The notes beneath the pieces were generated by a model. The model had not been told where the DNA came from. It ran no database searches and saw only the letters and a program-made list of their open reading frames with translations. Positions 9,795-12,939 of a stretch of DNA of 31,413 bases are shown here, piece by piece. The position numbers and the translations under genes are program-made. Every line of letters starts with the position of its first letter. The stretch's first letter is position 1. This DNA comes from a virus: positions 1 through 31,413 of IMG/VR virus record IMGVR_UViG_3300042895_000648, one strand, 5' to 3'.

Positions 9795-10113
9795 AATAAA
9801 CATAAAGCCCTTGTCAGTAAATGAATGCTGGCAAGGGCGTCGTTTTAAAACCATATCTTACAAGAAGTACGAGCGTGATATGTTATTAATGCTACCAAAA
9901 AAAACGTTTAAATTTGACAAATTTTCAATAGTTGTTGAGTTTGGTTTCAGTACGGTACTGGCAGACATAGACAATCCATTAAAACCGTTTATTGACGTTT
10001 TACAAAAGAAGTATAACATAAATGATAGAGACGTTTATTCTTTGTCAGTTTCAAAAAAAGTAGTACCGAAGGGTACTGAGTATATTAAATTTAAAATTTC
10101 ACAATATGAATGA
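9787..10113 (+). CDS. rusA: RusA-like Holliday junction resolvase
   Basis: A 108-residue protein of the RusA endonuclease family. It begins with IKPLSVNECWQGRRFKTISY (residues 6-25), then the acidic active-site region LADIDNPLKPFIDVLQKKY (58-76) with D60, D62 and D70, then DRDVYSLSVSKKVV with a further acidic residue at 80 or 82. It cuts four-way junctions left by RecT-type recombination so the DNA can be packaged. I chose ATG 9787, which overlaps the nuclease stop; a TTG at 9778 is less likely. Confidence 0.88.
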   Translation: MYKINIKPLSVNECWQGRRFKTISYKKYERDMLLMLPKKTFKFDKFSIVVEFGFSTVLADIDNPLKPFIDVLQKKYNINDRDVYSLSVSKKVVPKGTEYIKFKISQYE

Positions 10114-10396: not shown

Positions 10397-10551
10397 TGAT
10401 AGAAGTTGAGGTTGTAAAATTGGATATGAAAGGCGTCTGCGTTGAGGTTAAGACTATGTATTTAAACGACTGGAAGGCCTTAAAAAAAGAACCGAATTTT
10501 ATTTACAGAGCATACCAAATAAATTTTCATAGTTTTATTGTTGGTATCTAA
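10396..10551 (+). CDS. Small hypothetical protein (51 aa)
   Basis: A 51-residue ORF linked to the HTH gene by a TAATG junction (MIEVEVVKLDMKGVCVEV... YRAYQINFHSFIVGI). The beta-prone start (alternating Val) and aromatic end look like real protein. It is the last gene of the recT transcript; its 3' end overlaps the -33 element of the next promoter. No family recognised. Confidence 0.62.
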   Translation: MIEVEVVKLDMKGVCVEVKTMYLNDWKALKKEPNFIYRAYQINFHSFIVGI

Positions 10552-10570
10552 ATTTTTTTTTCTATATTTG
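10541..10570 (+). promoter_or_regulatory. Promoter with -33 and -7 elements
   Basis: TTG (10541-10543), 19 nt of spacer, then TATATTTG (10563-10570). This is the best full Bacteroidota promoter in the window. Transcription should start near 10575, directly before the first hairpin of the candidate RNA. Confidence 0.75.
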
Positions 10571-10574
10571 CTGA

Positions 10575-10674
10575 ACAGTAATGAAGTGGAACGCATTACA
10601 AAAGTGAAAATATTATACAAAATCCTATTCAGGCGGTACGTTCCACAACTCTACCAAATGAATGGGATTTTTTT
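10575..10674 (+). ncRNA. Candidate structured RNA with kissing loops and 3' terminator
   Basis: Hairpin A: GTAATG (10578-10583) pairs with CATTAC (10594-10599); its 10-nt loop holds GTGGAACG (10586-10593). Hairpin B: 10619-10630 pairs with 10660-10671 (12 bp, one G-U), with an inner GGTA/TACC stem (10635-10638 with 10652-10655). Its 13-nt loop holds CGTTCCAC (10639-10646), exactly complementary to loop A. T68-T74 form the terminator tail. The RNA, about 100 nt, would begin at the promoter and end at this terminator. An 8-codon ORF (ATG 10581 to TGA 10607, MKWNALQK) overlaps hairpin A. It could be a small RNA, or an attenuator for the gene at 10698. I do not recognise an RNA class. Confidence 0.65.
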
Positions 10675-10697: not shown

Positions 10698-10916
10698 ATG
10701 AAACATTCAATTATTAACGAACTTTACAATTGCGATAGAATTTTAAGTATCTTAGAGTTTGACGGAGAGGTAGTTGTTCAAATCGAGGTTTTTTCAAAAT
10801 CTGAAAAAAAATTAATAACAGAGGAAAGATTTTCATTATCAAAAGAAAACTTACATTCATTTATTGGCGTATTACTTCACGTTCAATCAAAAATGAAAGG
10901 AGGCAAAAATGGCTAA
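10698..10916 (+). CDS. Small hypothetical protein downstream of the structured RNA
   Basis: A 72-residue protein (MKHSIINELYNCDRILSILE... ENLHSFIGVLLHVQSKMKGGKNG). Beta strands are likely in the middle (VVVQIEVFSKSEKKLI), with a helix at the end. It lies 24 bases after the terminator-like hairpin, so its expression may depend on read-through. Its last codons carry the Shine-Dalgarno of the next gene, and it overlaps that gene by 8 bases. Function unknown. Confidence 0.65.
   Translation: MKHSIINELYNCDRILSILEFDGEVVVQIEVFSKSEKKLITEERFSLSKENLHSFIGVLLHVQSKMKGGKNG
10896..10903 (+). promoter_or_regulatory. Perfect Shine-Dalgarno AAAGGAGG
   Basis: AAAGGAGG with 5 nt to the ATG at 10909 is fully complementary to the 16S rRNA tail. 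No other gene in the window has such a site before its start. Bacteroidota mostly initiate without Shine-Dalgarno pairing, so this marks the downstream gene as special. Confidence 0.75.
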
Positions 10917-11724
10917 GGAATTACCGTACTTTAAATTTGAGCCAGCGGAATATTTAACTAAGGATATTTCATTTTGTAGTTTATCAGCCCAGGGCTTATT
11001 CATTAACATTTGTAGTTATTATTGGCAAAGAGGTTGCCAACTTACAAAAGAGCAACTTTTAAGAAGGTTAAACCACGAAACAGAACTCGAAGAACTTATT
11101 GGCGAGGGTGTTATTGATTTAATAGAAAACAATATATTTATTAAATTTTTAGACAATCAACTTAATGAAGTTGAAAATAAAAGCAAAACCAATTCAGCCA
11201 ATGGTAGCAAGGGCGGAAGGCCTAAAAAAAACCGAACTGAAACCGAAACGAAACCGAATGAAAACCCAAACGAAACCGAAACCATAAGCGAAACAAAAGG
11301 CATAAGAGAAGATAAGATAAGATTAGATGAAATAAAAGAAGATGAAATAAAAGAAGATGAAAATATTAATACGGCTTTGCCTTTTTCATTTTATAATTCT
11401 TTAATCAAATACGGCTTTCATAAAAATTTAGTTTCGGACTGGTTGAAAGTCAGAAAAGCAAAAAACGCGTCAAATACAGAAACGGCCTTCAATAATTTTA
11501 TAAAAGAAATTGAAAAAAGAAATTTTGATTTGAACGAAATTTTAGAATTTATAATTGTAAAAGATTGGAAAGGTTTTAAATGGTCCTGGTATGACACAGA
11601 AATGGAAAAAGAAAAAAATTCCGCGCAAAAAGAAAAAGTAGTTGCTGGAAGGCAAACAATGGAAACCATTCAACAAAATTTAGATACAACTGGCTTATAT
11701 GTTCCGAGCCTACAAAATAAATAA
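10909..11724 (+). CDS. Replication-initiation-type protein (DUF1376 / Lin1244-like N-terminus)
   Basis: A 271-residue protein. Residues about 5-60 (LPYFKFEPAEYLTKDISFCS, SAQGLFINICSYYWQRGC) match the winged-helix N-terminal domain common in phage replisome organisers. Residues about 90-150 are a low-complexity linker rich in Lys, Glu, Asn and Thr (GGRPKKNRTETETK). Residues about 155-235 (FYNSLIKYGFHKNLVSDWLK, AFNNFIKEIEKRNFDLNEIL, KDWKGFKWSWY) look like the C-terminal DnaD/helicase-loader-type helical region. It probably binds the phage origin and recruits host helicase. It is the only gene here with a strong Shine-Dalgarno. The domain match is good; the mechanism is inferred. Confidence 0.75.
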   Translation: MAKELPYFKFEPAEYLTKDISFCSLSAQGLFINICSYYWQRGCQLTKEQLLRRLNHETELEELIGEGVIDLIENNIFIKFLDNQLNEVENKSKTNSANGSKGGRPKKNRTETETKPNENPNETETISETKGIREDKIRLDEIKEDEIKEDENINTALPFSFYNSLIKYGFHKNLVSDWLKVRKAKNASNTETAFNNFIKEIEKRNFDLNEILEFIIVKDWKGFKWSWYDTEMEKEKNSAQKEKVVAGRQTMETIQQNLDTTGLYVPSLQNK

Positions 11725-11728
11725 AACT

Positions 11729-12586
11729 ATGGAAAATCAAATTCAAATTTCAAATTCAGAAAACTTTTATTTACAAAAGCGAGAAGAAATTCAAAACGAA
11801 ATAAATTTGCCTACTAAAACTTTTATACAAAAAAGTTACGATTTCAAAAAAATTAAAGAAATCAAAAGTGATCCGAATTTTATTTTTTTAGTTTCTGGCT
11901 GGATAGCGCAAACGTCAATTTTAATGGAAATTAAAAACCCAATTGATAGTTTTACAAAGCAAGATATTATCAATATGCTTGACGGCTACTGGAGTAGTTT
12001 TACGCTGGAAGAAATGATTAAGGCTTTTGAACTTGAAAGGTTCGGACAGTACAAAGAAACTACAGAGCATTTTCAATTATTTAATGCGTCGTATATTGCT
12101 AAGGTTTTTAAAAAATACCAGAATTGGAAACACGATAAAAAAATTGAACTAAATATTTCAAATCAAAATACCGATATGGAAAGCGCACTCACACAAGAGC
12201 AAAAATTTGAAATAATGTCTAATGCTATAAATGAAAAATATTTGCATTATGTAAACACTAAGCAAGTAAGCGAACCATATACGCATATATTTTCAGAACT
12301 TATCGAACGTGGAATAATAAAAACACCTACGGTACAAACGCCAAAACTATCAATGTATTTTGAAAATAAACTCACCCAGGCGGCTGAGGAATTAAAAATT
12401 GAACTTCAAGGCAAAACGGAACCAGATAAAATAAAAAGAAAAAATATCCAGGGCGTATTGAATAGTATTTTAGAAAACAACCCAAACGATAGCGCGAAAT
12501 TAAAAATTGAAATACGAGCCAAAAAACTAGTGTTAATCGATTTGTTTAATAAGTACCTAGAATTAAACTCAGAAAAAATAGTATGA
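11729..12586 (+). CDS. Putative replication protein, unknown family
   Basis: A 285-residue, mostly helical protein. Features visible: IFLVSGWIAQTSILMEIKNP (about 52-71), FTKQDIINMLDGYWSSFTLE (about 75-94), then ERFGQYKETTEHFQLFNASY and IAKVFKKYQNWK (about 102-134). A charged C-terminal half includes TPKLSMYFENKLTQAAEELK. The middle wording recurs in Bacteroidota phage and mobile-element proteins next to replication genes. It lies between a replisome-organiser-like protein and a DnaA-domain protein, so helicase loading or primosome assembly is plausible. I preferred ATG 11729 to 11699 because it follows the upstream stop; the longer form overlaps the previous gene by 26 bases. Confidence 0.65.
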   Translation: MENQIQISNSENFYLQKREEIQNEINLPTKTFIQKSYDFKKIKEIKSDPNFIFLVSGWIAQTSILMEIKNPIDSFTKQDIINMLDGYWSSFTLEEMIKAFELERFGQYKETTEHFQLFNASYIAKVFKKYQNWKHDKKIELNISNQNTDMESALTQEQKFEIMSNAINEKYLHYVNTKQVSEPYTHIFSELIERGIIKTPTVQTPKLSMYFENKLTQAAEELKIELQGKTEPDKIKRKNIQGVLNSILENNPNDSAKLKIEIRAKKLVLIDLFNKYLELNSEKIV

Positions 12587-12939
12587 TACATTTAAACTTA
12601 TATAAAATTTTGCTATTAGTGGCAAACTACTATGATCTAACAACTGAGGAATTAATAGGGAAGTCAAGGTTATCAAAAATTTCACACGCCAGACAAGTAT
12701 ATTTTTATTTAGCCAGAAAACATAGTTTAAAGTCCTACGATGAAATTGCTGAACTTGTGAACAGGAACCACGCTACGGCTATTCACGGTGAGAAAACTAT
12801 TAAAAACCTTTTGGAAGTTGATAAAAAATATAAAAAAGAAATATTTTTAATAAGGGAAAACATAGGTAATGACCTGATTGTTAGAGAGGTAAACTTATTA
12901 AAACTATGTAAAAATTACGCTGAAAGTTTTGTGTTATAG
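12583..12939 (+). CDS. Stand-alone DnaA domain IV-like DNA-binding protein
   Basis: A 118-residue protein whose residues about 5-85 match the C-terminal DNA-binding domain (domain IV) of DnaA: LLVANYYDLTTEELIGKSR (11-29), HARQVYFYLARKHSLKSYDE (35-54) and the signature helix RNHATAIHGEKTI (61-73, as RDHSTVxHAxxxI in DnaA). The ATPase domain III and domains I-II are missing. It probably binds DnaA-box-like sites, either to mark the phage origin or to compete with host DnaA. It is coupled to the previous gene by ATGA and ends the replication operon. About 30 extra residues follow the domain. Confidence 0.85.
   Translation: MIHLNLYKILLLVANYYDLTTEELIGKSRLSKISHARQVYFYLARKHSLKSYDEIAELVNRNHATAIHGEKTIKNLLEVDKKYKKEIFLIRENIGNDLIVREVNLLKLCKNYAESFVL

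Follow-up and report, generated by a model that had tools for sequence, protein, structure and literature searches.

Structure of the locus

The window examined here is a virus record of 31.4 kb which carries on its plus strand, at 10563-10674, an element composed of a Bacteroidota promoter, a first hairpin (hairpin A), an A/U-rich linker and a second hairpin (hairpin B) that runs into a T tract. The promoter is of the sigma-ABfr type and extends over 10541-10570, with TTG at 10541-10543 as the -33 element, a spacer of 19 nt, and TATATTTG at 10563-10570 as the -7 element, the latter being kept in relatives. The promoter consensus of Flavobacterium johnsoniae is TTTG/TANNTTTG and transcription begins 4-5 nt after the -7 element (PMC6847099), a spacing that predicts a start at 10575-10576, or 2-3 nt before hairpin A. 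A preliminary description of this DNA had named the same promoter features, all of which are present, and had placed the start at about 10575.

Hairpin A (10578-10599) is predicted to fold from the stem GTAATG/CATTAC (10578-10583 and 10594-10599) with a 10-nt loop, AAGTGGAACG, in which GTGGAACG (10586-10593) is the strand available for loop-loop, or kissing, pairing. The linker that follows (10600-10618) is 19 nt long and contains a motif similar to GAAAATATTATA which is conserved among the sequences compared. Hairpin B occupies about 10619-10671 and has an outer stem, AAAATCCTATTCA/TGAATGGGATTTT, and an inner stem, GGTA/TACC (10635-10638 and 10652-10655), closing a 13-nt loop whose first part, CGTTCCAC (10639-10646), is the exact complement of GTGGAACG. 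Seven T at 10668-10674 complete a predicted intrinsic terminator. The two hairpins, the T-rich tail and the complementary 8-nt loop segments are thus all found as first described. Folding of the window site alone, which leaves the loop-loop helix uncounted, gave a z score of -2.6, with 4 of 200 shuffled sequences folding equally well.

The first downstream gene (10698-10916, plus strand) encodes a protein of 72 amino acids assigned to phrog_7002 and begins 24 nt after the T tract with no promoter between them. Behind it in the same operon lies a replication-initiation gene of the O-like/primosomal type (10909-11724, plus strand). Nearby, 12583-12939 encodes a small protein whose helix-turn-helix domain is that of the DnaA C terminus (Pfam Bac_DnaA_C, E 1.6e-18), and mumin gp028 and hattifnatt gp029 bear the same annotation. 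At 9807-9838, within the exonuclease/RusA gene region or at its end, there is a strong terminator-like hairpin with a 13-bp stem and a loop of 6.

An 8-codon open reading frame, MKWNALQK, covers loop A, and a ribosome translating it had been proposed to block the kissing pair. The reading frame is present in the window but is not conserved; it stops after two codons in 26 of the 34 relatives that have an ATG at this position, and 13 more relatives lack the ATG. The idea of a leader-peptide attenuator was therefore rejected.

Loop-loop covariation and the family of elements

A descriptor was built that combines the promoter, a hairpin, and a complementary loop within a T-tailed hairpin, and that demands both a T-rich tail and TANNTTTG. 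It matched the window once, at the 10563-10674 site, compared with 0.1 matches per shuffled window, and it matched 1.08 Mb of fetched loci, partly chosen for carrying the element, 82 times compared with once in shuffled sequence. Three matches (L086, L152 and one of those in L158) were removed by eye as doubtful. With blastn the element could be traced to some 46 Flavobacterium phage records, which match it at 82-85% identity, and to morran9-1, where identity is 71%; the Flavobacterium phages with such matches come from a collection reported to comprise 38 virulent phages (PMC7077304).

Whether the complementarity of the loops could be due to chance was decided by scans that ignored the partner strand, which yielded dozens of relatives, all in phage DNA. 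A scan whose fixed part was limited to the promoter and the beginning of hairpin A recovered 35 real relatives, and loop B was perfectly complementary in every one of them. A scan blind to all eight pairing positions of loop A added four loci with three new loop pairs, all exact complements: GTAGAGAG/CTCTCTAC (two loci), GTGGAACT/AGTTCCAC and CTAGGAAG/CTTCCTAG. Across 31 sequences gathered without the partner loop, the kissing positions were 100% Watson-Crick with no G-U pairs, and compensatory double changes were seen in seven of the eight pairs; shuffled and slid controls scored far lower. A set of 53 sequences, partly gathered by loop complementarity, gave the same result for the kissing pairs and had a hairpin A stem that was 100% paired with double changes, while hairpin B stems in the larger set of relatives were 96-98% paired with many double changes.

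Uncompensated loop changes, sought among the relatives, were absent, and compensation was seen in every relative. Since the kissing pair has survived one change of sequence after another, the pairing is real, and the covariation in relatives gathered blind to the partner is decisive comparative evidence which confirms it. The partner-blind scans rule out chance complementarity, which had been judged unlikely from the start. The element thus shows what defines a kissing-loop RNA, a covarying Watson-Crick helix between the loops of two hairpins. A long alternative helix in place of the kissing interaction was considered and rejected, as in nearly all members the helix normally does not go beyond the borders of the loops.

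Searches with a covariance model and then with the descriptor revealed paralogous copies, with other stems and loop sequences, at further places in these genomes. A contig may have as many as five copies: hattifnatt9-1 has three, which precede the helicase gene gp034, the endonuclease gene gp041 and the replication operon, mumin6-1 has two, morran9-1 has one, and one metagenomic contig (L037) has five. The main class has two unpaired A and eight paired nucleotides in loop A and an asymmetric loop B. A second class, defined by GTAG A-GT-N5 CTAC and scanned for with five loop positions and the whole of hairpin B left free, has an exact complement in 29 of 30 distinct elements, representing ten different sequences; the single exception is a chance match in coding sequence. 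Both loops of the second class are 8 nt long, with one unpaired 5' nucleotide and seven paired nucleotides flush with the 3' strand (33-34 elements). In both classes the linker between the hairpins is 83-90% A+T with a median length of 20 nt, and sequence conservation, considered with the ligand-binding core of a riboswitch in mind, is limited to the linker and the stem edges. There are 33 distinct kissing helices among 94 elements, with a mean duplex energy of -10.8 kcal/mol. The loop pairs within a genome differ from one another (0 of 34 share 6 nt where 3.3 would be expected; P about 0.02), as is predicted if pairing occurs within one molecule.

Several divergent elements were also seen. 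Loci L080, L082, L086 and L089 have the loop pair GTGAGAAG/CTTCTCAC with divergent stems and linkers, and their hairpin B ends about 4-15 nt before an ATG; L058 has the loop pair GTGAGACG/CGTCTCAC, again with divergent stems and linkers. These elements suggest that the family is wider than two classes.

The preliminary description had recognised no known class in the element, and comparison with Rfam 15 bears this out, there being no match at the curated gathering score in the window or in 20 loci with relatives of all classes; in a permissive scan of the window site no score came anywhere near the gathering cutoffs. Copies in bacterial chromosomes were sought in 84,980 genomes by strict pattern scans, which gave first 0 and then 9 matches, about the number expected by chance, and the Bacteroidales match was read and found not to be a member. 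Neither a covariance model nor the second-class pattern had any match in 395 Bacteroidota genomes, a weak result given that this set had no positive control. No relative was found in plasmids, and the literature searches made for this analysis yielded no description of the element and no structured RNA of Bacteroidota phages.

Downstream genes and the T-rich tail

The collection comprises 98 distinct elements, 94 of which are followed by more than 200 nt of sequence. An open reading frame on the same strand starts within 60 nt in 93 of these 94, at a median distance of 22 nt in the main class and 13 nt in the others, and among the elements checked none had an internal TANNTTTG promoter between the element and this reading frame. 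Closeness to a gene is by itself weak evidence of function because phage genomes are compact. Ahead of the promoter, 20 of 94 elements have a terminator-like hairpin, compared with none in shuffled sequences. Proteins encoded downstream include HNH, NUMOD4 and GIY-YIG proteins, DEAD/ResIII helicases, DUF3987/Prim-Pol proteins, DNA methylases and AAA ATPases; many of the genes are homing-endonuclease genes, and HNH_3 is found downstream in 16 of 36 elements of the non-main set. About 40 nt separate hairpin B from the ATG of genes of the MAKFELKF/MANVKLIF type (for example in L006, L008, L009, L035 and L043), a small family, and this interval contains, immediately ahead of the ATG, a second small conserved hairpin whose stem is AGGT..ACCT, CCGT..ACGG or CGAT..ATCG depending on the phage and apparently covaries.

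Two comparisons of related phages found an element and its gene to be jointly present or absent. Mumin carries the element and an HNH endonuclease gene directly after a stop codon, and filifjonk, which is 99% identical up to that point, carries neither. Likewise, the element before the hattifnatt helicase gene lies beyond the end of the similarity to mumin and morran. In the first case (1431-2046 of L002 against the position near 2048 in L003), the HNH/NUMOD4 endonuclease gene together with its kissing leader has the appearance of a single mobile cassette, for which filifjonk has the empty site.

Hairpin B has a GC-containing stem with a U-rich tract directly behind it, the sequence arrangement from which intrinsic termination is predicted. 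Because the descriptor demands a T-rich tail, tail statistics were recomputed on sets unselected for the tail. Relatives gathered in this way have 5.5-6.2 T in the eight positions examined compared with 3.05 for control hairpins, and at least five T occur in the first eight nucleotides after hairpin B in 21 of 27 and 18 of 22 relatives. This enrichment supports termination, and hairpin B probably ends transcription in many members. The T tract is poor in some of them, as in L106 (GGGAGTTGTGCATTT) and several members of the main class (TTTAACTTTTT), so hairpin B may not terminate everywhere.

Possible modes of action

Since promoter, leader, T-tailed hairpin and start codon follow one another without room for another promoter, the leader would form part of the downstream mRNA, and expression of the gene would therefore need read-through of hairpin B. 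The position of the copies directly before genes, together with the joint gain or loss of element and gene, argues for a cis-acting leader rather than a stand-alone RNA. It is held with moderate confidence, on sequence evidence, that the element is a cis-acting 5' leader which attenuates the downstream gene. Host RNA polymerase would start 2-3 nt before hairpin A, which would fold at the extreme 5' end of the transcript, and loop B would pair with loop A on emerging. Hairpin B would then close, and the T tract would end much of the transcription after about 100 nt, right before the gene, with read-through yielding the replication-operon mRNA. Whether it favours or opposes termination, the kissing fold would set the level of read-through, either as a constitutive damping or until a phage or host factor alters that level.

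The element does not resemble a classical attenuator with a mutually exclusive antiterminator, for pairing of upstream sequence with either arm of the terminator was not above that in shuffled sequences. With no alternative antiterminator fold, the kissing fold or a factor binding to it should set read-through; there would be no built-in switch, and regulation would need a factor, presumably one that relieves termination at hairpin B. The two-hairpin leader has the look of a gene-control switch of a new kind. It is like the lambda pR'-tR' leader (6S RNA, the Q-dependent late leader) in position and presumed role: in the lambda leader a terminator comes directly behind a strong promoter and ends a short leader RNA ahead of the genes, making read-through the control point. 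The lambda leader, however, has no kissing loops, occurs once per genome and needs Q, whereas kissing leaders occur several times per genome in replication and endonuclease units. The putRNA of phage HK022 is a promoter-proximal leader RNA of about 70 nt with two stem-loops which acts on transcription in cis; it adopts a triplex fold, binds the beta' zinc-binding domain and suppresses termination at distant sites (PMC9378689). The kissing leader is like it in two-hairpin layout, position and presumed role, and differs in that its loops pair and its second hairpin itself bears the T tract.

A serious, if improbable, rival to the attenuating leader is a post-transcriptional 5'-UTR element that involves no termination, in which the 5' kissing fold shields the mRNA from decay, or hairpin B, lying 10-25 nt before the start codon, limits loading of the 30S subunit, or both. 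Hairpin A begins at about +1, the distance to the AUG is narrow, some members have a weak T tract, and structure near the start tunes initiation in F. johnsoniae (PMC6847099), all of which would suit such an element. The T enrichment described above, by contrast, marks intrinsic termination and would be unneeded for a role in translation or protection. Structured hairpins in front of free-standing endonuclease genes of phage T4 delay or limit expression. The T4 hairpins cover ribosome-binding sites, and to our knowledge flavobacteria lack Shine-Dalgarno sites; here the kissing hairpins belong to a single module with the promoter and the T tract, and this module also precedes replication genes.

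The preliminary description had left the choice between a small phage RNA and an attenuator of the replication genes from 10698. The second of these has gained ground, and the first is a lesser rival that seems doubtful now that about a hundred copies are found directly before a gene, two of them gained or lost with it. Stand-alone RNAs would act in trans, sealed at the 5' end by hairpin A and at the 3' end by the terminator, with closeness to genes reflecting genome compactness and the downstream genes being served by partial read-through. The element's own promoter and T-tailed hairpin, its compact fold of about 100 nt with paired ends, and the retention of the main-class element while the genes downstream vary between phages are consistent with this. 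Such RNAs would not be expected to precede many different genes at a narrow distance from the start codon or to come and go with a gene; moreover, outside the A/U linker there is no conserved unpaired seed for targeting, and the copies in one genome have their architecture in common but not their loop sequences.

In plasmids, loop-loop kissing of about 7 bp exerts control beside the replication genes, as in RNAI-RNAII of ColE1, a complex recognised by Rop, and in attenuators such as that of pT181. The kissing there is between sense and antisense RNAs, whereas here both covarying loops lie in one transcript. It is very unlikely that leaders, once released, dimerise with one another or pair with nascent transcripts of their own element to give dosage-dependent feedback like that of plasmid copy-control antisense RNAs: covariation alone fits cis or trans pairing equally, loop pairs differ between copies in one genome, and the 7-bp symmetric kissing geometry resembles RNAI-RNAII, but the flexible linker of about 20 nt makes the cis pair locally favoured, and an antisense promoter is not needed. 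No test makes the kissing leader a member of the lambda pR', HK022 put or RNAI-RNAII systems, which it resembles.

If the elements are attenuating leaders, one module would head several genes per genome, each with its own loop pair, and these genes would form a regulon. Tentatively, this could be a phage-wide regulon of orthogonal kissing-loop leaders. One trans-acting factor (a phage protein or a host elongation factor) would read the kissing geometry and A/U linker common to them, much as Rop reads RNAI-RNAII, and would switch read-through into replication genes and homing-endonuclease genes in concert over time; private loop pairs would stop cross-talk and recombination among copies.

Gene control in Bacteroidota phages has been little studied, and the kissing-leader module is common, precise and testable. 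The succession of promoter, kissing hairpins and gene start offers an annotation rule for metagenomic phages, and the 33 natural kissing-loop sequences in a uniform frame should be useful for work on RNA structure and as orthogonal RNA parts. For the phages themselves, kissing leaders suggest a shared layer of control for replication and homing-endonuclease genes.
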